A stretch of DNA of 29,651 nucleotides from a virus, in the IMG/VR virus record IMGVR_UViG_3300048026_000138, positions 1-29,651 of that record, one strand, 5' to 3'. The notes below the pieces were generated by a model. The model made no database searches. It saw only the letters and a program-made list of their open reading frames with translations, and was not told where the DNA came from. Below, one piece after another: positions 1 to 29,240 of the stretch; the first letter of the stretch is position 1, and every line of letters begins with the position of its first letter. Position numbers and translations under genes: made by a program.

Positions 1-3000
1 AAATAAGCTGTGTTATTACTGTCGTAGAAAAGAGGAGCGCGAGATGACCCGGGAGTATATGTGTATGAGTTGTACACATAAAATTCTACGTTATTGTCAC
101 AGCTTAGCATCATGGGATTCGTGCCAGTCTGTATTTTTACAGCAAAATTCCCATCATTATCTAAAAGCCCGAATCTACCACTCCCATCACCATAGATATA
201 ACCGTGTAGTGTATTATCGCCATCAAGAAACTTAATGCCTCCTGATCCAGAGTCACCCCATTTAAAGTTTAGATAATTATCATTACCATCATCATAAAAT
301 CTTACGTTGTCATTGAAATGAACTTGACCGCAGTAATCAAGAGTATAGTTATTCATGTCAATAGAACCGCCCATATTTAGACGGTAGCCTGAGGTGTTAG
401 CATTGGCTCCTATGCCAAGCCAGTTAACTCGCTCAACGTTTATGTTGGATGTATCGAGAGGATTAACGTAATAAGCTGTGTCATTGCTATCGTAGAAAAT
501 TGGCGATCTTACAGAATTATTACCATATACATGGCCAGTGCTACCGGAATTTAAATATAAAACACCACTAGCAGAAACAGTCCTTATCGTTACATCAAAA
601 TCCCCGTCAGTATCTCCGTCTGTGCCTATATACAAGTTTGACGCTTGTATACCGTATTGGAAGTCGGGAACACCTGAGTCTTTTCTAGCGAATGATGAAG
701 CGTGTACACCATCAAGCAAATCAGCATCTAAACCAGAGCCAGAGCCATCATTGCCTGCATGCCAAATCTTATATCTACTTGCACCCTTAGACCATCCACC
801 AACGAATAAATCATTAGTATCGCCATCAAGCCCAAAGTATGTTGCGTAATCTCCACCAACATGAAATGCCATAAAAGCATCATTACCTGCACCAGAAGAG
901 TAACACTCTAAACTAGCTTGGCTACCAGAAGTTGTTGCCGCATTGGTGTTAGAATAGAAAGTAACTTTGTTACCATAATTAGTTACTGAATTACTTGTGT
1001 CGTTTCTAATAAATGAACTTGCTTGAATGCCATCTACAGTATCGGCATCTAAGCCAGAGCCAGAACCATCGTTAAAGCTATCCCATACTGTGTACAGCGT
1101 ACCTCCGTGGTCAACCTGAAGGTTACCCCCGACAATTTTCTTTAAATCCCAAGCTCCCCATTTTGATTTTAAGAAGCCGGTACTACTTCCATCTCCGTAA
1201 ATATTAAAAATATGTGTGTCAGCACTATTGCCTAACCAGATGCCTCCACCACTATTTGTCCCACCAGTATTAAAGTTTAAATTTCTGTCTGAGTTAGTTA
1301 AGTCTCTATACAAGAAACCAGTAGCTTGAATACCATCAAGAGTATCAGCATCTAGGCCACTGCCGGAGCCATCATTGCCCTCGTGCCAGACATTGTTTAA
1401 GTTATACTTTAGTACACCCCCAGAAACGTAATTAACAGCATTGGAGCCTGACCAGTTAAAACCTGTGTCTTGGTCACTAGTGCCTGTCAGGGTTACGTCT
1501 GTAAGAGATGTGTTATTAGGGAGTCTGAGTTCATTGCCAACTTGAACGACATCTAGTGTAAGTGTGCCTGAGTGACTGTCCGACACATCACTTCTTAGGA
1601 ACTGGCTACTGTCAATACCATCAAGAGTTGCGGCATTTGTAGTATCAGTCCACGGTACATTAACATACATCTGTCCACTAGAAAGCTCGACAGGGTAGTT
1701 CTTACCATTCTCTGTGTAGCCAATCTTGACGAGACCTAGAGTGCTAGCTGTCGCTGTGGAGTATGTAGTGTTAGTGTCAGTATCTGTACTGGAGATTGTG
1801 AAGTTGGGGTATGTACCAGTAACTGTAGTGGCACCAGAACCTGTTAAAGTAACAGTCTGATCAGGAGCAGTATTTGCAAAGGTTGTTCCTGTAAGACTTA
1901 GGCCGCTTCCTGCTGTATAAGTCGTATCTGTTGTAACATAACCTGCATCATTAGTTAAACCGGAAATGTTATCACCGGGTTGAACTGCAGAATCCGCAAG
2001 TGTTCCTTGTGCGGCTGTAGCGTAGTCTGTAGATGCCGTAGTAGCCGCAGTGCCTAACCCAAGATTAGTACGAGCCGCGCCTGCATTATTCAAATCACTT
2101 AAGTTATTTACAACAAGAAGCGCACCTGAGAGTGACGCATAAGCGGCTACCCAAGTAGACCCTTCATAAACCTTCATTACATCATCAGTTGTATTAAAAT
2201 ACAAAGCCCCTGCAACTAAAGCATTACCATCGTTGTCTACAGTAGGGTCTGTGGTTTTAGTTCCAAGATAACGGTCATCAAAAGAATCAAGAGCCGCTAA
2301 AGCCGCATCTTTAGCAGACTCAGCCGCTGTTGCTGATGTAGACGCAGAAGATGCACTATTAGATGCATTGGTTGCTGAAGTAGAAGCTGAAGTAGCAGAA
2401 GTTGCCGCATTAGTAGCAGAAGTACTTGCACTAGTTGCTGAAGTAGCCGCTGAAGTTGCGCTATTGGATGCGTTGGTTTCTGAAGTAGCGGCATTGGTTT
2501 CTGAAGTAGCCGCATTAGTTGCGCTAGTGGATGCCTCAGATGCTTTAGTAGTTGCTGTAGATGCGGAAGTTGATGCAGAGGTTGCGCTAGAAGCCGCTGA
2601 AGTAGCGGATGTGGCCGCATTAGTCTCTGCAGTCTCTGCTCCAGTTTGCGCTGTTTCTGCGGCAGTCTGAGCAGTCTCAGCCGCTGTCTGTGCGGTACTA
2701 GCAGAAGTTGCTGAAGTAGCGGCATTGGTTGCAGAAGTAGCCGCTGAGGTAGCAGAAGTAACCGCTTCAGATGCTTTAGTCGTAGCAGTAGTTGCTGACG
2801 TTGATGCACTTGTTGCGGAGGTTGCCGCAGAAGTTGCAGAAGTTGCCGCATTGGTTTCTGAGGTTGCCGCATTGGTCTCACTAGTTGCGGCGTTGGTTGC
2901 AGAGGTTGAAGCTTCAGATGCTTTGGTAGTTGCAGTAGAAGCAGAAGCGGCAACACTAGATTCGGATGCCGCCGCATTCGCCGCACTGGTAGATGCTTCA

Positions 3001-3164
3001 CTTGCTTTAGTAGTTGCGGTGCTTGCGGAGCTAGATGCGCTCGACGCAGAGCTTGCGGCATCACTGGCAGACTGAGCGGCGTTAGTAGCCTGTTGGGTTA
3101 CTTCAGTAATTGTAGCATCAGTAGTAGAATCACCTGTACCACCTGTTCCACGAAAAATACCCAT
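1..3164 (-). CDS. Tail fibre protein, C-terminus beyond the window
   Basis: This open frame starts at an ATG at 3164 and I found no stop in the stretches I translated down to base 1, so the product has at least 1,054 residues and is partial. The N-terminus begins MGIFRGTGGTG and is followed by about 250 residues of low-complexity Ala/Ser/Thr repeats (units such as TSATNAATS and TTKASEAS), as in the shaft regions of phage side fibres. Next comes a segment with DDRYLGTKTTDPT and GALYFNT motifs, then repeated modules each carrying LDADTLDG-type and F-x-R-x-D sequences. Near the window edge there are two FYDSN(D/N)TAY motifs. Host adsorption is the expected role, inferred from family architecture. 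It lies downstream of the capsid gene in the late leftward operon. The Ala-rich frames readable on the other strand and in other phases here are shadows of this gene. Confidence 0.88.
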   Translation of the reverse strand, partial: MGIFRGTGGTGDSTTDATITEVTQQATNAAQSASDAASSASSASSSASTATTKASEASTSAANAAASESSVAASASTATTKASEASTSATNAATSETNAATSETNAATSATSAATSATSASTSATTATTKASEAVTSATSAATSATNAATSATSASTAQTAAETAQTAAETAQTGAETAETNAATSATSAASSATSASTSASTATTKASEASTSATNAATSETNAATSETNASNSATSAATSATSASTSATNAATSATSASTSATNASNSASSASTSATAAESAKDAALAALDSFDDRYLGTKTTDPTVDNDGNALVAGALYFNTTDDVMKVYEGSTWVAAYASLSGALLVVNNLSDLNNAGAARTNLGLGTAATTASTDYATAAQGTLADSAVQPGDNISGLTNDAGYVTTDTTYTAGSGLSLTGTTFANTAPDQTVTLTGSGATTVTGTYPNFTISSTDTDTNTTYSTATASTLGLVKIGYTENGKNYPVELSSGQMYVNVPWTDTTNAATLDGIDSSQFLRSDVSDSHSGTLTLDVVQVGNELRLPNNTSLTDVTLTGTSDQDTGFNWSGSNAVNYVSGGVLKYNLNNVWHEGNDGSGSGLDADTLDGIQATGFLYRDLTNSDRNLNFNTGGTNSGGGIWLGNSADTHIFNIYGDGSSTGFLKSKWGAWDLKKIVGGNLQVDHGGTLYTVWDSFNDGSGSGLDADTVDGIQASSFIRNDTSNSVTNYGNKVTFYSNTNAATTSGSQASLECYSSGAGNDAFMAFHVGGDYATYFGLDGDTNDLFVGGWSKGASRYKIWHAGNDGSGSGLDADLLDGVHASSFARKDSGVPDFQYGIQASNLYIGTDGDTDGDFDVTIRTVSASGVLYLNSGSTGHVYGNNSVRSPIFYDSNDTAYYVNPLDTSNINVERVNWLGIGANANTSGYRLNMGGSIDMNNYTLDYCGQVHFNDNVRFYDDGNDNYLNFKWGDSGSGGIKFLDGDNTLHGYIYGDGSGRFGLLDNDGNFAVKIQTGTNPMMLSCDNNVEFYVYNSYTYTPGSSRAPLFYDSNNTAY
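688..1640 (-). repeat. Four protein-level LDG modules in the tail fibre
   Basis: Four modules of roughly 95-110 residues carry the core L-D-G-x5-F-x-R-x-D. Core positions are near 1600-1640, 1314-1379, 1014-1074 and 688-757. Three of them are preceded by NDGSGSGLDAD. Similar LDG repeats occur in fibre proteins of several phage groups and generally belong to the trimeric fibre stem. The module order suggests duplication within the gene. Confidence 0.7.
2340..3085 (-). repeat. Imperfect coding repeats of the tail-fibre shaft
   Basis: This stretch encodes many short units ending in Ala, Ser or Thr. A longer block coding TATTKASEA recurs near 2531-2562, 2761-2790, 2908-2940 and 2992-3022. Spacing is irregular, which suggests repeated duplication and deletion of units. 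The DNA copies have diverged at silent positions, so the repeat is older than a recent tandem expansion. Confidence 0.75.
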
Positions 3165-19836: not shown

Positions 19837-20013
19837 ATGCTTACGCTTGAAGAAATTAAAGACAAACTCAAGCAATTGGATGAGGTAACTCTACTGGAAA
19901 CTTTAGAAGTTACCTCAGAAGATTTAGTAGAACGATTCCTAGATCGAATTGAACAACAACAAGATACACTGGAGAATGATTTCGATGAGTCAACACCTTG
20001 GGATAACGATTGA
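19837..20013 (+). CDS. Hypothetical 58-residue acidic protein
   Basis: Starts at 19837 (MLTLEEIKDKLKQLDEVT) five bases after the DUF3310-like stop. The protein is acidic and helical, with leucines spaced as in a coiled coil (LLETLEVTSEDLVERFLDRIE), ending DESTPWDND. Such short Glu/Leu-rich proteins are common before nrd or replication genes in phages. Its end overlaps the nrdA start by 29 bases. No function assigned. Confidence 0.7.
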   Translation: MLTLEEIKDKLKQLDEVTLLETLEVTSEDLVERFLDRIEQQQDTLENDFDESTPWDND

Positions 20014-21742
20014 TTATGAAAGAGATAATCGCCTCAGTGAACAAGCTACTACGCTTATGCGTGACTACTATATGCTTGAACATGAAGAGTCTCCTCAACA
20101 GGCTTTCGCTCGTGCGGCAGTGGCTTACTGCGCTGACGATTTCGATTTGGCACAACGCATTTATGACTATGCCTCGAAAGGTTGGTTCATGTTTGCGTCA
20201 CCTGTCCTCAGCAATGCCCCAGAACCGAATGGAAAGATTAGTGGGTTGCCTATTAGCTGTTTCCTTACTTATGTGGGGGACAATCTTGATAGCCTTATTG
20301 AACATAATGGTGAAGTAGCATGGCTTTCCGTAAAGGGCGGAGGTGTGGGTGGGCATTGGTCAGACGTGAGAGGGATCAGCGACAAAGCCCCCGGACCGAT
20401 ACCGTTCATGAAAGTAGTAGACGCACAGATGACAGCGTACAAACAAGGAAAGACAAGAAAGGGTAGCTATGCCGCATACATGGATGTGGCGCACCCTGAC
20501 ATCGAGGAGTTTGTGTCTTTCAAAGTAGCCACTGGTGGTGACATCAACCGCAAGTGTTTCAATTTATTTAATGCTGTGAACATCACAGATGATTTTATGG
20601 AGAGTGTAATCAATGATACAGAATGGAATCTTACAGACCCAAGTACAGGAATTGTTAGAGAGACAGTCAAAGCTCGTAGACTGTGGCAACGAATCCTTGA
20701 AGCTCGCTTCAGAACTGGCAGTCCTTACCTTAACTTTATCGACACAGCCAGACGCGGCTTACCAGAAGCTCAAAGAAAACTTGGATTGTCAATTAATGGC
20801 AGTAACCTCTGCAATGAAATCCATCTCGCAACAAGTGAAGAACGCACAGCCGTCTGCTGTCTCTCCTCAGTCAACCTTGAAAAGTATGACGAGTGGAAAA
20901 CAACAGGAATGGTTGGAGACCTTATCCGATTCTTGGACAACGTGCTTCAATTCTTTATTGACAACGCACCAGAAGAACTATCAAAAGCTGTGTACTCAGC
21001 TTACAGAGAACGCTCAGTCGGTCTCGGAGCAATGGGCTTCCACGGTTACCTCCAGTCCAAAGGACTAGCTTGGGAATCATGGCAGGCCGCAAGTGAGAAC
21101 TACCACATCTTCCAAGACATCAAAGCCCAGTCCCTTGAGGCCACATACAGTCTCGCTGTGGAGCGCGGCGAGTGTCCTGATGGGGTGGGTTATGGTGTTA
21201 GAAATATGCATCTGTTGGCTGTTGCTCCTAACGCTAATTCTAGTATCCTATGCGGGTGTTCTGCTAGCATTGAACCACGTATTAGCAACTGCTATGTCCA
21301 TCGTACTCGTGCCGGGAGTCATACTGTACGTAATCCGTATCTGGAGGAACTTCTAGATGACAAAGGACAGAACACAAAGAAGGTGTGGAAAAGCATCCTT
21401 GAGAATGAAGGCTCTGTTCAACACTTAGAGTTTCTATCTGAAGATGAGAAAGCAACGTTCAAGACAGCGTTTGAACTCGATCAGGGATGGGTGGTTGAAC
21501 ATTCAGCAAAGCGACAGGAGTTTATATGTCAGGGACAGAGTGTTAACGTGTTTTTCCCATCGGGTACTGACAAGGCTATTGTCAATCAGGTACACCTCAA
21601 GGCGTGGAAGGAAGGGCTTAAGGGATTATATTATCTACGCACGACTGCAGGTGTTACAGCGGAGAAGGTCGGGACTAAAGTGGACCGTAATGCATTGAAA
21701 GATTTTGAGGATGAAGAAGTATGTGTGAGTTGTCAGGGATGA
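19985..21742 (+). CDS. nrdA: Ribonucleotide reductase class I, large subunit
   Basis: The 585-residue protein has the catalytic cysteines of NrdA: Cys92 in GLPISC, the NLCNE motif with Asn274, Cys276 and Glu278, and Cys291/292, of which one pairs with Cys92 in the redox cycle. The radical-transfer tyrosines are Tyr549-Tyr550 and the C-terminal swinging cysteines are in CVSCQG. It reduces ribonucleoside diphosphates together with NrdB. The N-terminal ATP-cone of the cellular enzyme (about 100 residues) is missing, so dATP inhibition is probably lost. The start at 19985 (MSQHLGITIDYER) is chosen over 19949 because the family begins there and the upstream part overlaps another gene. Confidence 0.97.
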   Translation: MSQHLGITIDYERDNRLSEQATTLMRDYYMLEHEESPQQAFARAAVAYCADDFDLAQRIYDYASKGWFMFASPVLSNAPEPNGKISGLPISCFLTYVGDNLDSLIEHNGEVAWLSVKGGGVGGHWSDVRGISDKAPGPIPFMKVVDAQMTAYKQGKTRKGSYAAYMDVAHPDIEEFVSFKVATGGDINRKCFNLFNAVNITDDFMESVINDTEWNLTDPSTGIVRETVKARRLWQRILEARFRTGSPYLNFIDTARRGLPEAQRKLGLSINGSNLCNEIHLATSEERTAVCCLSSVNLEKYDEWKTTGMVGDLIRFLDNVLQFFIDNAPEELSKAVYSAYRERSVGLGAMGFHGYLQSKGLAWESWQAASENYHIFQDIKAQSLEATYSLAVERGECPDGVGYGVRNMHLLAVAPNANSSILCGCSASIEPRISNCYVHRTRAGSHTVRNPYLEELLDDKGQNTKKVWKSILENEGSVQHLEFLSEDEKATFKTAFELDQGWVVEHSAKRQEFICQGQSVNVFFPSGTDKAIVNQVHLKAWKEGLKGLYYLRTTAGVTAEKVGTKVDRNALKDFEDEEVCVSCQG

Positions 21743-21912
21743 AAACGGAAGAACAAATATTACTTGAGAGGTTAGCGATCATTAAAGACTCTGACCCCTT
21801 TAACAAACGATTACTTAATGACTGCTTTACAGTCGTACAACAAATGTCCAATAAACTGGACGCACTGGAGAAACAATTATATGAGCTTGCAGGAACAGAG
21901 CAAAAGTTATAA
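21739..21912 (+). CDS. Hypothetical 57-residue protein between nrdA and nrdB
   Basis: The ATG at 21739 overlaps the nrdA stop (ATGA). MKTEEQILLERLAIIKD and later QMSNKLDALEKQLYELAG give a helical, probably coiled-coil protein. It ends 32 bases inside the nrdB gene. No known role; it may simply couple translation between the two reductase subunits. Confidence 0.65.
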   Translation: MKTEEQILLERLAIIKDSDPFNKRLLNDCFTVVQQMSNKLDALEKQLYELAGTEQKL

Positions 21913-22834
21913 ACCATTCGCATACCCTTGGGCAGTGACATACGCAACAGAACATGAGCGTATCCACTGGATCGAGGATGAACTGGAGTTACAGACCGAT
22001 GTCAACCATTGGAAGTCAGGGGCATTATCGCAGGCAGAGAAGAACCATATCACTCAGATCTTGCGGTTATTTACACAAACGGACGTGGCGGTTGGAACAA
22101 ACTATCTTGAGTATTATATACCCAAGTTCAAGAACAATGAAATCAGAGCCATGCTCACAGCCTTTGCTTCTCGTGAGTTCATCCACCAACGAGCATACGC
22201 CTTACTTAATGACACTCTCGGACTTCCGGAAGAGGAGTTTACAGCGTTCTTAGAGTATGAACAAATGTCTGCAAAACTGGAGTTCATGTCCGGATTAGAC
22301 GTAAATTCTATAAGCGGTACAGCCCTTGCAATTGCACGTTCAGTGTTGAATGAAGGCATGAGTTTGTTCTCAGCATTTGCGATGCTACTTAACTACCAAC
22401 GCTTCGGTAAGATGCCGGGTATGTGTACTGTTGTTGAGTGGTCAGTACGTGATGAGTCACAACACGCAGAGGGGATGGCTAAGTTATTCAGGGAGTATTG
22501 CAATGAACATCCGCGAATCGTTAATGACGATTTCAAAAAGAGTATCTACGAGATGTTCCGCACTGCTGTCAAACTGGAAGACAAGGTTATTGATCTTGCG
22601 TATGAGATGGGTGACTTGGAAGGTTTGTCGTCGGCAGATGTCAAGCAGTACATTCGCTACCTCGCAGACAGACGTCTACTACAACTTGGTCTCAAGACGA
22701 ACTGGAAGGTTAAGGAGAATCCTCTACCGTGGATGGAAGAGTTACTAGGCGGATCGTCAATGAGTAACTTCTTTGAGAAGCGAGTGACTGATTATAACGC
22801 ACATGGATTGGAAGGAGATGATTGGGGATGGTAG
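21881..22834 (+). CDS. nrdB: Ribonucleotide reductase class Ia, small subunit
   Basis: The 317-residue protein has the six iron ligands of NrdB: Asp68, Glu99, His102 (EFIH), Glu158, Glu192 and His195 (DESQH), plus Tyr106 as the radical tyrosine, four residues after His102 as in E. coli. This places it in the tyrosyl-radical class Ia type. It generates and stores the radical for NrdA. The start at 21881 (MSLQEQSKSYKPF) is preferred to an upstream ATG at 21818, which would extend far into the preceding gene. The C-terminus DDWGW is the likely NrdA-docking tail. Confidence 0.97.
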   Translation: MSLQEQSKSYKPFAYPWAVTYATEHERIHWIEDELELQTDVNHWKSGALSQAEKNHITQILRLFTQTDVAVGTNYLEYYIPKFKNNEIRAMLTAFASREFIHQRAYALLNDTLGLPEEEFTAFLEYEQMSAKLEFMSGLDVNSISGTALAIARSVLNEGMSLFSAFAMLLNYQRFGKMPGMCTVVEWSVRDESQHAEGMAKLFREYCNEHPRIVNDDFKKSIYEMFRTAVKLEDKVIDLAYEMGDLEGLSSADVKQYIRYLADRRLLQLGLKTNWKVKENPLPWMEELLGGSSMSNFFEKRVTDYNAHGLEGDDWGW

Positions 22835-23077: not shown

Positions 23078-25267
23078 TTACTCTAACCGTCCGCGCTTAC
23101 GTAGCATCTCTACTTTAAATTTCTGGGCCATCTCTGGATCACTACGACGTAACATGTTGTAGAATCTCTGGCGTGGTCCACGCTTTAGCCTATCAATTTG
23201 TTTTTCTAATAGAACCTTTTGTCTAGCTTTAGACTGCCGCGAAAAGAATGGTGAGCTAACATAACGCTCAAGACGTGGACTGATATAGTCATTACTCATC
23301 TTACGTAGCATTGACAATTGATCATTGTTTAACTCAACGCTTTTTAAGTCATCATCCTCACGCATCTTTGTAACACCAAGATCATAGACAGCCTTTTGCA
23401 ACGGAGTCTGATCTGCTGACTGAACATTAAATGAAGTCAACGCCTGTGCCATGTTACGCTCACGAGGGCCACCTGTTAGACCATACTCAATGGGTAACTC
23501 TTCACGCAACCCTGGGATTCGTTGTTGAATCTTTTCTACTACTGTAGTTGCTTGTCGATCATAAGGATCAATTGAACGTGCTACTTGATTAAGAATTGCA
23601 GGAGTAAACTGTCTACCAATTGCAACCGCTACGCTTGATGGATCACCTCGCTCAATAGCAGTAACAGTATCACCTACAAGCGTGTTGATACCTTCAAAGA
23701 AAGTCTTCTGTAAGATCTGTGACTTGATAGCAAAGCCCATACCCTTACCAACTTCTTCACCCCATACGTCCCACTTCTGATCTGCTTCAGGTAGACTAGC
23801 AACGTCATCCCATAAGCGTCCCATCTCAGCAATTAAACCAAGTGGAGTTGCAAGAGGTTCAATACGATCATATGCAACCCATACATCACCAATACGAATA
23901 GATGACTGGGGTATACCTGCGTCTTTCCAAGCCTGTGCTTCTGCCGCATTTCTAGGTTTACCTGTCAGCATGCCCTCTTGCACCATACCCATTCCCATAG
24001 CGAATAACGTACCGCCTAAGATGTTACGCGCAAGGAGTTCTTCATTTGTAAACTCATAGTATGCACCCATATTCTTCATGTCATTGGGAATACCCTTCTC
24101 ATCAACTTTAGGACCAAGGTATTTCTTTGCTACTTGTGGCAATCCCGGAATAAATGTAGTACCTTCCTTTACAATATTCCAAGGGGTCTTCATAAAAGGT
24201 ACAAATAGGTGAAGTAATGGGTACTTGTTACGTGCATCTTGAACAGCTTGTACGCTACCAGTCAGACGTTGCTGAAACATCTCACGCAGTGCATACTCTT
24301 TAACGGTTTTGTATGCAGTAACGTCAGCACCAAATACTTTATCAAGGTCTTGCTGAAGTTTACCAAATGATCTTTTAACAGCTTCTGCCCTAAGCATATC
24401 CGCATCAGGCTTCCCGGCAAAGTCATCATCAATCTTGATATGCTCCATACTATCTGTCATGTATTGGTCATACAGTTCTTTGTACTTCTTAGCATTGCCT
24501 TTAGATTCTGATCTAGCTTTCTGTGAAGCAAGCATAGCAATCTTGTAACGCCTAAAACGAGCCTTACCATATTCATCAATTGCAACTGACAGACGTGTAG
24601 GCATACGTATAATGTTTCCACCAAAACGAGCAGGGATAGCTCCACGTACATAGTCATAGCTTTCTTTTACAAACGCATTGATTTCATCATCAGTCGGCTT
24701 GTAGTTTTTATTTAACGTGTCGTAAACAGATTGACGATTTAAGTTAGGCTCACGTTGTAATGCAAGACCAACACGTTCTTCAATAATAGCTTGTCTAAAC
24801 TTTTCCCTAGCGTCTGCTTCTGAGATATTCAAACGCTTAGCTGAATCACGAATGTTTAGATCAATGTCCAATGGGTATGCGTTAGTCCACCCTGCTTTGA
24901 AGTACATTGCATCTGAGCCAAAGCCTTGGAGCATTGCTTGGATACCTGCAACAACATCACCAAACTCTTTCTGTGACTTAGGGTTGAGAGACTCAACAGC
25001 ATCAATCATTGGATTTGTGATTTGTTTATAGATAACAGATGCGGCGTTAGCGATTGGTGTACCAAAGCCAGAGAGAAGGGAGTTAATCTGAATCTCAATT
25101 GCTACATCCCATGCATTCTTAGGGCGACCAATTTGTCCAAGCGCATTATTAACAGCAGTGTCTAGTTCTTTCTTAGTGAATGCCGCAGGGTCTAGTGCGT
25201 GTGCAAATGTACCAATACTATTAGCGCATTCTCCAATCATTACATCATCTGGTTTTGCTTTAGCCAC
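23078..25267 (-). CDS. Large virion protein, LPD38-like, probable ejection protein
   Basis: The 729-residue protein includes PLLHLFVPFMKTPWNIVKEGT near the middle, then hydrophobic GGTLFAMGMGMVQEGML and a long stretch with GRQFTPAILNQVARSIDPYDRQ. This resembles by eye the LPD38-type domain found in large phage polyvalent and internal virion proteins. It may be carried in the head and ejected with the DNA. The start overlaps the preceding 698-residue gene by eight bases, so expression is coupled. No enzymatic motif is evident; a lytic transglycosylase domain was not found. Confidence 0.7.
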   Translation of the reverse strand: MAKAKPDDVMIGECANSIGTFAHALDPAAFTKKELDTAVNNALGQIGRPKNAWDVAIEIQINSLLSGFGTPIANAASVIYKQITNPMIDAVESLNPKSQKEFGDVVAGIQAMLQGFGSDAMYFKAGWTNAYPLDIDLNIRDSAKRLNISEADAREKFRQAIIEERVGLALQREPNLNRQSVYDTLNKNYKPTDDEINAFVKESYDYVRGAIPARFGGNIIRMPTRLSVAIDEYGKARFRRYKIAMLASQKARSESKGNAKKYKELYDQYMTDSMEHIKIDDDFAGKPDADMLRAEAVKRSFGKLQQDLDKVFGADVTAYKTVKEYALREMFQQRLTGSVQAVQDARNKYPLLHLFVPFMKTPWNIVKEGTTFIPGLPQVAKKYLGPKVDEKGIPNDMKNMGAYYEFTNEELLARNILGGTLFAMGMGMVQEGMLTGKPRNAAEAQAWKDAGIPQSSIRIGDVWVAYDRIEPLATPLGLIAEMGRLWDDVASLPEADQKWDVWGEEVGKGMGFAIKSQILQKTFFEGINTLVGDTVTAIERGDPSSVAVAIGRQFTPAILNQVARSIDPYDRQATTVVEKIQQRIPGLREELPIEYGLTGGPRERNMAQALTSFNVQSADQTPLQKAVYDLGVTKMREDDDLKSVELNNDQLSMLRKMSNDYISPRLERYVSSPFFSRQSKARQKVLLEKQIDRLKRGPRQRFYNMLRRSDPEMAQKFKVEMLRKRGRLE

Positions 25268-27356
25268 AGGTTACTCCAAAGAATAGGTCAGTGATGATCT
25301 TACCCTCCATCAACTGGCGTTGGTGTTTTTGTTGATACTTGTTTGCCAGTTTGTAACTGTTCAGCGCACGTGAGATATTAGTACGTGATGCTTCATCAAT
25401 ACGTTCTAGTTGACGCATGAGTGTCATAAGTTCCTTGGTTACCTGTAGATCATCTGTCATTCGCACAGCTTCAGCAGTGTTGAGTGCATCTTCTTTTGCG
25501 AGCTTACGGAACATAGGCATTAGTCTGTTTAAGTTGTCTGATGCAATAGCAAAGATACGTGATGCCGCTAGTTGCTCAACAGGTGTAAGAGTTTTAGTTC
25601 TTGACTCATTAAATGTTTTAATTAACCAGTCACCTGCATCTTTATAGTTGCCCTCAGTAATCATTTGATTAATATCATCTTGCATAATCCTTGCCGCTTC
25701 TTCTACGTTGGCAAAGCTATACTTCATATCAAGCAAGTCTTCAGGCTGAAAGTAATGCTGTCGTCCAGTCTCTTCCGCATTCTGATACATCTTACGTCTG
25801 CGTAATTCTGCTTCCGTAAAGACACGGCCACCTTGTCCCGGTACTTCCCCTTCTAGTTCTTTAGCACGAGTGCTTCTAAATGGAATACGATCTGTGGCTT
25901 CTGTGTCTACACCTGCAATAGCTTTACTTGTTTCCATTGCACCAACAGAACTGTCTTCTGCTCTGCGCTCTAGGATACGACGACCAACATCAGTCTCTGT
26001 AGTACGTACATTAGGAGGCGGAGTTGGCTCTGCTTCAGGACGTTGGAATGGTCTTGCAGGAGTAGGTTCTTCTACTTGTGTTACAGGCTCAGATACACCT
26101 GTTGTTCTAGCCTCACGAGTTGCCGCCGCCTTTGCAGATGGACGAGGTTCTTTAGGCTTAGACTCCTGTACTGCACGTGCAAGAGGTTTCTTCTTAGCTA
26201 CGTTAGCAACACGATCGAGTATAAGAGGAGAGACCTGTCCATTGTCTAAGCGAGTTAGTTCTTTTTTAGCTTGCTCGCCTGTCTCCCATTTCTTGATTGT
26301 TTCATTTGGATCTTTAAGTTTAGCTTCTGCTTCTTTTAAATCTTTTTGTAGTTTCTTTTGCTGTTGGGAACCACGCTTACTCTTAGCAATGTCTTGGCGT
26401 AGTTTTTCAATCTGACCACTAAGATTACGGGCTTGTACTTGCGCTCTACGGTAGTCAGCTTTTTCAAGACCTGTGTCAGTCAGGTTCATCAAGTCAGCAC
26501 GTACTTGACCTAATGCATCAAAGGAATCTTGCTCGTTAAACTCAACAGGGCGGATTGGTGTTGCACTACCGCGTGGAGCAGGTACGCCCGGAGCCGCAGG
26601 AACCCCTGCAGGATAGCCCTGTATAGGAGCAAGGCCCGTAGTTTCCTGAGTCATTGGTACTGTCCCACCCGCAGTAGCAGGTTTACCCTCAGTACCCGGC
26701 TGGAATGGTAAACGAGGAGTAGCTACTTCTGGAGATGGTAGTAATGCAACAGGTGCTTCTGGAGCAGGTAACGCTAACTGTCTTTGTTGTGTAGGAGGAC
26801 TTGGCGTAGGAATTGTAGGAGTAAGGAGTTTACCAATACCATATGCCGCACCGCCTAGTACACCACCAAAGGCTGTACCTGCCGCGACATTCATAGCAGT
26901 GCTATCTTCTTCAGTAAGAATAGGCTCTAAGAAACCACCAATTGCACCGCCCGCTAAACCTTGTGTAAATAGGTTATTCCAACCAGACTTACCGAGTGCT
27001 GTTGTAACTCGACCTAGCCCGCCAAGAATACCCCCACCTACAAGATCAACAGATCCACCAACTAACTGGCCTGCAAGAGATGCAAGTAAATTATCTTCTC
27101 CTGCAATCTCAGCCATGTCACGGTAGAGCAGAGCTTCATCTTCATCAAAGTCAATTCCAAGACCCAAGTCTTCTGCAATTTGCGCAAGACCCATAAATGA
27201 TGATGCGGCAGAATATTGTGCCCAACGTGTAAAACCAGTTTCTTCTTTAGTCTCACGAATAATATCGTCAACTAAACGAGTAGACTCTGTAGACTGAGGC
27301 GTCTTCTCTTCAGCGTCTTGCTGAATCAAACTGTTTACAAGCTCTTCCCGTGTCAT
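25260..27356 (-). CDS. Large internal virion protein with Gly-zipper segments
   Basis: The 698-residue product has Gly-rich hydrophobic stretches in the first 170 residues (VGGSVDLVGGGILGGLG, GLAGGAIGGFLEP, AFGGVLGGAAYGIGKLL), which could insert into membranes. A Pro-rich linker follows (about 190-280), then a charged coiled-coil region and a helical C-terminus. This is typical of ejection proteins that help DNA cross the cell envelope. It overlaps both neighbours by a few bases. No family name can be given with certainty. Confidence 0.68.
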   Translation of the reverse strand: MTREELVNSLIQQDAEEKTPQSTESTRLVDDIIRETKEETGFTRWAQYSAASSFMGLAQIAEDLGLGIDFDEDEALLYRDMAEIAGEDNLLASLAGQLVGGSVDLVGGGILGGLGRVTTALGKSGWNNLFTQGLAGGAIGGFLEPILTEEDSTAMNVAAGTAFGGVLGGAAYGIGKLLTPTIPTPSPPTQQRQLALPAPEAPVALLPSPEVATPRLPFQPGTEGKPATAGGTVPMTQETTGLAPIQGYPAGVPAAPGVPAPRGSATPIRPVEFNEQDSFDALGQVRADLMNLTDTGLEKADYRRAQVQARNLSGQIEKLRQDIAKSKRGSQQQKKLQKDLKEAEAKLKDPNETIKKWETGEQAKKELTRLDNGQVSPLILDRVANVAKKKPLARAVQESKPKEPRPSAKAAATREARTTGVSEPVTQVEEPTPARPFQRPEAEPTPPPNVRTTETDVGRRILERRAEDSSVGAMETSKAIAGVDTEATDRIPFRSTRAKELEGEVPGQGGRVFTEAELRRRKMYQNAEETGRQHYFQPEDLLDMKYSFANVEEAARIMQDDINQMITEGNYKDAGDWLIKTFNESRTKTLTPVEQLAASRIFAIASDNLNRLMPMFRKLAKEDALNTAEAVRMTDDLQVTKELMTLMRQLERIDEASRTNISRALNSYKLANKYQQKHQRQLMEGKIITDLFFGVTCG

Positions 27357-28105
27357 GGCATCACCGGACGATCTACTGTAGATTGTGCTTCAGTTGGGAT
27401 TTGCCTTACCTCTTCTAGTGTTAGTTCTACTATATCATTAGGGCCGGGGCCTATACGTCTAATGTAGCGTCCGCCAATGTTCTCTACCCCACCTACAGGA
27501 ATACGATCAATACGATCCAGTAATTCAGAACGTGCGCGAGACTCAGGACTTTCGCTTTCAACCTCTACCTTAACTCCACCTGCTTGCTCTTGTGCCATTG
27601 ACTGCATAGTTTCTTCATCAAAGATCGGTGTAAGCTCATCAGTAAGAATGTTAAACTTATGAGGTACATTAATTTTTACTGCTGTAGTACGGGTTTCGCC
27701 AAACTCATCAACTGTTGTAACAGGGCGAGTAACTTGCTTGTCAATAATCTTGATTTGACTAATATCTCTTGCTTGTTCTGCAGTAGCTTTACGATCTGCC
27801 ATATCAAGAATCTGTAATGCACGATCTTCAAAGCCTGCCTCTTGTAAACGTCTAGCCGCATCGCGCATGCCTTCTTCTGTTGTCAGATCAAGACCTTCTC
27901 TTACGCCCTGTAACTTACGAGCTTCAACAACATCAGCAGACTCGCCACCAAACAAACGAGCTAGTCCTAAACCAATAGCACTCCCTGCAATTGTCTCTGG
28001 AGTACGCTGAGACGCAAGAAATTCTCGGAGCTGTTCCCGCTCTCTTTGTTGAATTTGCTCCGGTGTTGCACCAAAGAGAGATAATACTTGTTGTCTAGTT
28101 GCCAT
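27353..28105 (-). CDS. Probable virion-associated protein, 250 residues
   Basis: Starts MATRQQVLSLFGATPEQIQQ and is highly charged and helical in the first 110 residues, with a short hydrophobic stretch IAGSAIGLGLARLFGG. The later part is more beta-like and ends with Pro and Val-rich sequence. The ATG at 28105 overlaps the TGA of the frameshifted extension of the upstream gene (TGATG), supporting coupled translation. It overlaps the 698-residue gene by four bases. Placement among virion proteins suggests an internal or tail-tube-associated role. Confidence 0.65.
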   Translation of the reverse strand: MATRQQVLSLFGATPEQIQQREREQLREFLASQRTPETIAGSAIGLGLARLFGGESADVVEARKLQGVREGLDLTTEEGMRDAARRLQEAGFEDRALQILDMADRKATAEQARDISQIKIIDKQVTRPVTTVDEFGETRTTAVKINVPHKFNILTDELTPIFDEETMQSMAQEQAGGVKVEVESESPESRARSELLDRIDRIPVGGVENIGGRYIRRIGPGPNDIVELTLEEVRQIPTEAQSTVDRPVMP

Positions 28106-28218
28106 CAGAATGATCCCATATATCCAGTTGGGTTTCTATAAAATTGAAATGCGTTACTTGCACCTGTTCCGCCATAACCCCCTAAGCCATAAACTTCACC
28201 GGGGGTACTACGAAAAAA
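28105..28218 (-). other. Probable +1 frameshift or slippage extension
   Basis: On the leftward strand the T6 run (28218-28213) is followed by an open frame one base forward: 35 codons, containing GLGGYGGTGASNAF and ending NPTGYMGSF, with TGA at 28107-28105. That stop overlaps the next ATG as TGATG. The zero frame instead stops at once and leaves a 102-base gap, unlike every other junction in this tightly overlapping block. Causes could be ribosomal frameshifting, polymerase slippage on the homopolymer, or a one-base sequencing error. Confidence 0.65.
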
Positions 28219-28960
28219 GGCCACCAGTCACGGCACTTCCTAACATTGATCCAAAAAATCCCATATTAGATGAACGTCTACCTTCTTGCATTTGAGCCGC
28301 TGTTTGATATGGAGCTAACTGCATTTGACCTGAGCCATACGCCGCCGCCGCACGAGCAGTTTCAGCATCAACACCTTGAGCCATTAGTGCGCGTTCCATA
28401 TCGCTGATGCCCATACCTGCACCTAGCATACCACCTGCTAGTTGTTGTAGTTGTGCTTGCTCACCAAGAGCTTGTCCACGTGATCCTGCCGCAAGCTGTG
28501 CCAATGTTTGTTGTTGAGCGCGTCCAAGACCTAATGCATCAGGTTGTACCATACCGGAGCCTGCACCTAAGCCTGCTGATTCGCCTGCAAGTCGTAGACC
28601 TAATCGACCAGAGCCAAACAAAGATTGCTGTAGCTGTTGTGCTTGCTGTTGGAACTGAGGCTGTAACAAAGCAGATTGCTCTGCAAATATTTCTTGCCCT
28701 CGTTGTGTAGGATCAAACGCCGCCGCTTGTTCAAACAAACTTCCTGCACCTGTTAAAGCTGTTCCAAGAATATTTTGATAAGGAGCCGCAAGAGTTGTTT
28801 CAAATCCTTGATCTGGTGTATATTTAGCCATACCTGCAGATGTAGTAACTGTGTATGGTTTAAATACAGACTCTGCTCCTAGCTCTCTAGCACGTGTGAT
28901 TGCTTCTTGAGAAGTACCTACACCTCCTTTGCCGAACAATCCTCCTACTAAGCTACCCAT
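28208..28960 (-). CDS. Gly/Gln/Ala-rich virion protein, zero-frame product
   Basis: The 250-residue protein begins MGSLVGGLFGKGGVG and contains Gln- and Ala-rich helical segments (PQFQQQAQQLQQSLFGSGRL, AQLQQLAGGMLGAGM). It ends GFFGSMLGSAVTGGLFS. This style is found in phage tail or ejection proteins and may be an internal virion component. Its stop (TAG, 28210-28208) follows a run of six T, after which a different frame stays open for 35 codons to the next gene's start. A longer form is therefore likely. It overlaps the upstream 95-residue gene by eight bases. Confidence 0.7.
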   Translation of the reverse strand: MGSLVGGLFGKGGVGTSQEAITRARELGAESVFKPYTVTTSAGMAKYTPDQGFETTLAAPYQNILGTALTGAGSLFEQAAAFDPTQRGQEIFAEQSALLQPQFQQQAQQLQQSLFGSGRLGLRLAGESAGLGAGSGMVQPDALGLGRAQQQTLAQLAAGSRGQALGEQAQLQQLAGGMLGAGMGISDMERALMAQGVDAETARAAAAYGSGQMQLAPYQTAAQMQEGRRSSNMGFFGSMLGSAVTGGLFS

Positions 28961-29240
28961 TTGTATATCTCCACATAGGTCTATTTATCCCATCATCACA
29001 TGAGAGTGTTTGTACATATTTATATCCAATAGACTGCACAAACTTCTCCAACTTGGGGTTGTCAGTCAAGCAAAAAAACGGTTGTCCATGCATCATCTGT
29101 AAAAGTCCATGTACTTGTTTAAATTCTTTTTTAATACTTGGTGTCCACTTGTGTACATCAGCATGTGTCCAAGTTCTATCTGCAAAGCGTTCAAAGTAAA
29201 TCGTGTATGCAGGCTGTATTGCTACTGGAGTTTTAATCAT
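28953..29240 (-). CDS. Small virion-region protein, 95 residues, faintly acetyltransferase-like
   Basis: Starts MIKTPVAIQPAYTIYFERFAD and ends FVQSIGYKYVQTLSCDD...MWRY, a C-terminal pattern that recalls GNAT-type proteins (a Gly-Tyr-Lys turn and a final aromatic strand). It is too short for a complete acetyltransferase domain and lacks the acyl-CoA loop. Similar small proteins lie among tail genes in related podovirus-like genomes. It overlaps the upstream gene by one base (TAATG). Confidence 0.62.
   Translation of the reverse strand: MIKTPVAIQPAYTIYFERFADRTWTHADVHKWTPSIKKEFKQVHGLLQMMHGQPFFCLTDNPKLEKFVQSIGYKYVQTLSCDDGINRPMWRYTNG

Follow-up and report, generated by a model that had tools for sequence, protein, structure and literature searches.

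Does the gap behind one virion gene of an uncultured phage contain coding sequence that ribosomes reach by changing frame? The DNA analysed here, called the window, is a 29,651-nucleotide stretch of the IMG/VR record of an uncultured virus of bacteria, and it carries a virion gene cluster on the minus strand. In this cluster, one gene, which we call the body, is separated from the next ATG by 102 nt, and the remaining junctions touch or overlap by 1–8 nt (29240/29240, 28960/28953, 27356/27353 and 25267/25260). An earlier note on this DNA had called the gap out of character and had proposed a probable +1 frameshift or slippage at a run of six T (T6). The comparison of the junctions bears out the first point. 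As for the second, the main reading at which we arrived is that a programmed +1 ribosomal frameshift would produce, as a minor form, a probable ejection protein with a C-terminal extension. We put the probability of this reading at roughly 80%. The features of the locus are collected in Table 1.

Table 1. Features of the body locus and of the surrounding virion gene cluster in the window.
Feature	Position	Strand	Remarks
95 aa protein	28953..29240	-	upstream of the body, 8 nt overlap with it; T7 run in uninterrupted frame
Body, zero-frame gene, 250 aa; helical protein rich in Ala, Gln and Gly; probable gp14-like ejection (internal virion) protein	28208..28960	-	gene order: precedes the gp15-position and gp16-like genes
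GGTGG, candidate weak Shine-Dalgarno-like 5' stimulator	28221..28225	-	just 5' of the site; invariant in four phages
+1-frame GTG, sole candidate for the internal start of a separate tail ORF	28222..28224	-	no conserved Shine-Dalgarno before it
Proposed shift site CTT_TTT_TCG_TAG	28208..28219	-	T6 at 28213-28218; same in L002/L073, L072 and L074
+1-frame extension, 35 codons + TGA; Gly/Tyr-rich tail	28105..28212	-	gap-free in four phages; for dN/dS see text
Predicted hairpin, candidate 3' stimulator	28175..28210	-	UAG(U/C)NCCCC(C)...GGGGG(U/C)UA, starts at UAG
Next gene after the body, 250 aa (MATRQQVLSLFG...), gp15 position	27353..28105	-	ATG overlaps the extension TGA
698 aa protein, ejection cluster member	25260..27356	-	no convincing family match
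gp16-like internal virion protein, 729 aa	23078..25267	-	phrog_6651, E 2.6e-30

The 3' end of the body gene reads ...GGC CTT TTT TCG TAG. Starting from CGT (28212), the +1 frame encodes RSTPGEVYGLGGYGGTGASNAFQFYRNPTGYMGSF*, 35 aa, and its TGA has an A in common with the next gene's ATG at 28105 (TGATG). Thus, the sequence agrees with the earlier description of a zero frame that ends just after T6 and of a next frame open for 35 codons to TGATG. The -1 frame was rejected as a candidate: it stops 26 nt beyond the zero-frame stop and has no sign of selection. The window has a single copy of the string CTTTTTTCGTAG, also when one mismatch is permitted. When the 102 nt were base-shuffled, 11% of the versions stayed open in the +1 frame. 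Therefore, the openness of this frame alone is weak evidence, and the recoding case draws its weight from the relatives.

A search of viral contigs with the body found 70 relatives, among them L002, in which CTTTTTTCGTAG is identical to that of the window. A scan with the site pattern recovered L072 and L074 in addition to the contig of L002, which appears there as L073. All three are IMG/VR contigs that share T6, TAG and an ungapped homologous tail of 35 residues with the window. The tails of this type stop just short of the next gene, and the distance from the body stop to that gene is 102–104 nt. A looser site scan returned the same three contigs, as did a scan with the conserved end of the tail peptide, where every match (3/3) had the T6 site and no T5 version was found. 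The contig of one near-relative, L003, ends inside the T run. Identity of the bodies to that of the window falls to 48% in L074, the lowest value in the T6 set, and the tails of the four phages differ at up to 26 of 108 nt. The earlier note had advised looking for T6 or T5 in relatives and had named relatives lacking the extension reading as evidence against it. It turned out that T6 is kept in the relatives found and that they retain the tail reading. Among cultured phages, the body had no match by DNA or protein, and a scan of genome contigs for relatives gave one distant match only.

The way in which the tail varies shows that it is under purifying selection at the protein level in the +1 frame. 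Among the four phages, 32 of the 105 tail columns are variable, and they are distributed over the +1-frame codon positions as 5/9/18 (P = 0.0012). For the same frame, dN/dS of the pairs is 0.11–0.48, which is below the values for both other frames in each pair with a computable ratio; the -1 frame of the window/L072 pair has zero synonymous changes and gives no ratio. Around the site, the pattern GGTGG.CTTTTTTCGTAG..CCCCCGGTGA.GTT..GGCTTAGGGGG is nearly unchanged across the four phages, despite the divergence of the L074 body. Synonymous variation was found in 2 of the 9 usable codons among the first 11 tail codons, against 9/14 in the rest of the tail and 18/26 at the body end. This points to an added nucleotide-level constraint on the 5' end of the tail, perhaps imposed by the predicted hairpin that begins at UAG. 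The hairpin folds in all four phages but is only weakly more stable than shuffled sequences (fold z from -0.4 to -2.1). The invariant GGTGG is a weak anti-Shine-Dalgarno match, and its conservation may merely reflect Gly-Gly codons.

We also measured the distance from the body stop to the ATG of the next gene in 72 distinct loci of the family. This distance is nearly always from -8 to +25 nt. It is 41–60 nt in six further loci, and two loci listed at 314 nt have mis-assigned next genes. A distance of 100–170 nt was found in only 12 of the 72 loci, and all 12 have a recoding site: T6 (+1) in four and -1 heptamers in eight. The eight carry an in-phase canonical X_XXY_YYZ heptamer no more than 3 codons from the stop, whereas such a heptamer lies within 12 codons of the stop in only 3 of the 60 other loci. 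The heptamer is GGGGGGA in L009, L022, L026 and L098, GGGAAAG in L005 and L083, and CCCAAAG in L019 and L021; each time, the -1 frame stays open until the next gene. These loci, with conserved tails of 40–55 codons, are themselves recoding sites. For the tails of the GGGGGGA and GGGAAAG groups, dN/dS is 0.05–0.12, which corresponds to strong purifying selection. In the GGGGGGA group, a short hairpin also follows the stop, and L026 has one compensatory pair in it. There is no ATG, GTG or TTG near the start of the tail in the GGGGGGA group or in L083, and because a usable start is missing these loci need a shift. L050 (E 9e-17) and L139–L141 (E about 1e-8) carry the tail of the GGGGGGA group (type B, ..GTRYGTNPFSQQSRMLAAQEF) as an in-frame fusion to the body. 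These fusions suggest that the purpose of the shift may be to join the tail to the body. An in-frame version of the T6-type tail was not found among the relatives examined. A separate case is L150, where the body end GGGGGGAAAAACATAATGG has two overlapping in-phase slippery heptamers directly ahead of the stop, no tail and an immediate next gene.

Thus, the earlier reading of a probable +1 frameshift or slippage at T6 is supported by the kept T6 and tail, by selection in the +1 frame, by the -1 heptamers of the sister lineages and by the in-frame fusion of one -1 tail. We infer that the ribosome, and not the polymerase, slips, that it does so with UUU in the P site, that the flanking elements act as stimulators and that the extended form has a minor role. 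Ribosomes on the body mRNA would arrive at CUU UUU UCG UAG. With UUU and its Phe-tRNA in the P site and the slow, rare UCG in the A site, a fraction of them would slip +1 onto UUU. The common codon CGU would then be taken, and 35 more codons would be read to the UGA that overlaps the next AUG, while unslipped ribosomes would terminate at UAG. The two products would be a main form of 250 aa and a minor form of about 285 aa with the Gly/Tyr-rich C-terminal tail. UCG accounts for 24 of 7529 codons and CGU for 176. The forward-shift criterion of PRFect uses such a pattern of rare and common codons, and UUU is cited among the slipperiest +1 codons (PMC10885494). A rare UCG together with a common CGU fits this criterion.

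It is also possible that RNA polymerase adds or drops U at T6, so that part of the mRNAs encode a continuous protein by normal decoding. The site is indeed a homopolymer, and one U lost or two gained lead into the tail frame. However, the reported runs are longer, over 7 for A and over 8 for T (PMC3711429), and genes with transcriptional slippage would be expected to contain about 8–9 or more A or T; the four phages all have six T. In addition, an uninterrupted T7 is present in the adjacent gene and another T6 within the body gene itself. Slippage by the polymerase also does not account for the conservation of CG_UAG and of the GC-rich stretch downstream, and GGGAAAG and CCCAAAG in the sister lineages are ribosomal signals, not long homopolymers. 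We therefore regard transcriptional slippage as unlikely, and slippage by the ribosome at T6 is probably the more likely of the two.

A further possibility is that the tail is a separate overlapping ORF, a protein of about 40 aa translated from the +1-frame GTG or by re-initiation after UAG. All four phages have this GTG ahead of the tail, in L074 it is preceded by AGGAGG at about 11 nt, and the stops of L005 and L019 are overlapped by ATG or GTG. However, the GTG is a by-product of the conserved Gly-Gly codons, and the Shine-Dalgarno sequence is not conserved. A separate ORF also finds no usable start in the GGGGGGA group and L083, disagrees with the fusion of the type B tail to the body elsewhere and leaves the invariant T6-CG-TAG of the window without a reason. 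Such an ORF is very improbable. Scarcely more credit, and if anything a little less, can be given to a -2 ribosomal shift, which would reach the same frame as the +1 shift with one extra Phe (...GGLFFRSTPG). A -2 shift is known in phage Mu. It is also known at GUU_UUU sites (PMC10885494). However, after a -2 shift the A-site Ser tRNA (UCG) re-pairs with UUU at one position only, whereas the +1 shift is a perfect UUU-to-UUU slip of a single P-site tRNA. Finally, homopolymers are error-prone and a frame that opens in 11% of shuffles could be accidental, but the same T6 and TAG in different contigs, with so many differences between their tails and no T5 version, together with a tail that evolves as a +1-frame protein, practically rule out a sequencing error (a true T5) or a gene that has recently lost its frame.

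Which protein would carry the tail under the +1 ribosomal shift? The body had no match in Pfam or PHROG, and the 698 aa protein of the cluster had no convincing match to any family in these collections. The cluster begins with a small protein and ends with the gp16-like one (phrog_6651), as in podovirus ejection clusters, where gp14-like proteins of 181–240 aa come first (PMC8954989). The gene downstream of the body is placed in the gp15 position by gene order as the sole basis. Relatives of the body that bear a Peptidase_S74 (chaperone of endosialidase) domain match the PHROGs 'DNA ejection protein' (phrog_4287) and 'virion structural protein', partly via the S74 domain. Of the three ejection proteins annotated in the Pseudoalteromonas phage H6/1, the first carries an S74 tail. 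Its homology to the body was rejected, as the match is limited to the S74 domain. The AlphaFold model of the body alone is of low confidence (pLDDT 58.7). It weakly matches an internal virion protein of Roseobacter phage CRP-4 (E 0.018), and its matches to PDB structures are meaningless. Known gp14/gp7 proteins gave no sequence match and no confident structural match to the body. Taken together, it is somewhat more probable than otherwise that the body is a gp14-like ejection protein. A role as a G/GT tail assembly chaperone was considered and rejected: there is no tape-measure match, and an ejection cluster comes after the gene instead. Ahead of the shift site, the body has a hydrophobic, Gly-rich segment (GFFGSMLGSAVTGGLF) like a membrane helix, and the tail would lie beyond this putative membrane-helix segment. 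In the virion, a minority of the subunits of the core or ejection pore would bear the tail. Elsewhere in the window, a long fibre-like gene with many Ser/Ala/Thr repeats (ATSATSAATSAT...) occupies 3–3164 on the minus strand and is open at the window edge. On the plus strand, 19949–22834 encodes two proteins that by eye resemble both subunits of ribonucleotide reductase and adjoin a T7-like replication set (DNA polymerase and helicase-primase, also by eye).

The extension of phage virion proteins by frameshifting is known for capsid, tail tube and tail chaperone proteins (PMC5009743, PMC9965538). In the Listeria phages PSA, A118 and A500, a +1 frameshift takes place in the capsid (cps) and tail (tsh) genes at CCC_UGA or CCC_UCC (PMC5009743). 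As in our locus, a virion gene shifts +1 by a P-site slip on a homopolymeric codon and gives a second form with a different C-terminus. In contrast to the Listeria phages, the gene here is that of a probable ejection protein, the site is UUU_UCG and not CCC, the tail is not Ig-like and the genome is podovirus-like. The Kuravirus major capsid gene shifts -1 at GGGAAAG, and gene 10A/10B of T7/T3 also shifts -1 (PMC9965538). These are likewise short-tailed phages with a minor extended structural protein, and GGGAAAG is also present in L005 and L083; however, the protein is the capsid protein, the direction is -1 and the gene is another one. The heptamer of Lambda G/GT is GGGAAAG. This frameshift, too, occurs just before the stop and shares its heptamer with L005/L083, but G/GT is an assembly chaperone of long tails, whereas here no tape-measure gene was seen and the ejection cluster follows. 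The order of a small gp14-like, a gp15-like and a large gp16-like protein resembles that of the T7 gp14 and P22 gp7-type genes, in contrast to the absence of a sequence or confident structural match to these proteins; the review mentions no frameshift for these genes (PMC8954989). In influenza A PA-X, +1 frameshifting takes place at UCC_UUU_CGU (PMC3498833). PA-X is similar in shifting +1 at a UUU codon and different in the eukaryotic ribosome and the codon phase. A limited literature search found no report of frameshifting in ejection-type proteins and no CUU_UUU_UCG_UAG or T6 +1 site in phage.

The relatives also indicate how the extension may be acquired. L074 and L027 have near-identical flanks, and L027 is cleanly without the site and the tail, so that the body runs straight into the next gene. 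Between the two phages, the whole cassette of site and tail is a clean indel. On the body tree, the tail types are scattered: six classes require 15 changes, against a minimum of 5, and the T6 group at least 3. Other relatives have an in-frame Peptidase_S74 domain, or a look-alike, at the C-terminal end (L004, L011–L014, L020, L024, L046, L087, L092, L188, L191 and others; confirmed by Pfam in L004, L012 and L191), so that a probable ejection protein bears a domain of the tail-fibre type. The scattered tail types, the L074/L027 indel and S74 at the same place identify the 3' end of the gene as an exchange point. Judging from these comparisons, the shift signal appears to travel together with its tail, and the cassette to come, go and be exchanged in one piece. 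For the Ig-like domains of phage proteins, which occur in frame, at -1 or at +1, a similar idea has been suggested (PMC5009743). We tentatively propose, with somewhat less than even confidence, that the gene 3' end is a swapping site where whole recoding cassettes move between phages and would decorate a minority of pore or core subunits with interchangeable tails (T6 +1, the three -1 kinds, in-frame tails or Peptidase_S74), with the low tail dose set by the frameshift rate.

Conserved coding sequence of the kind described here would escape gene callers. A single gene family with four recoding signals, with in-frame versions and with the pair L074/L027, which differ in the presence of the cassette, is a natural experiment that bears on the origin of recoding and on the purpose of the minor extended form.
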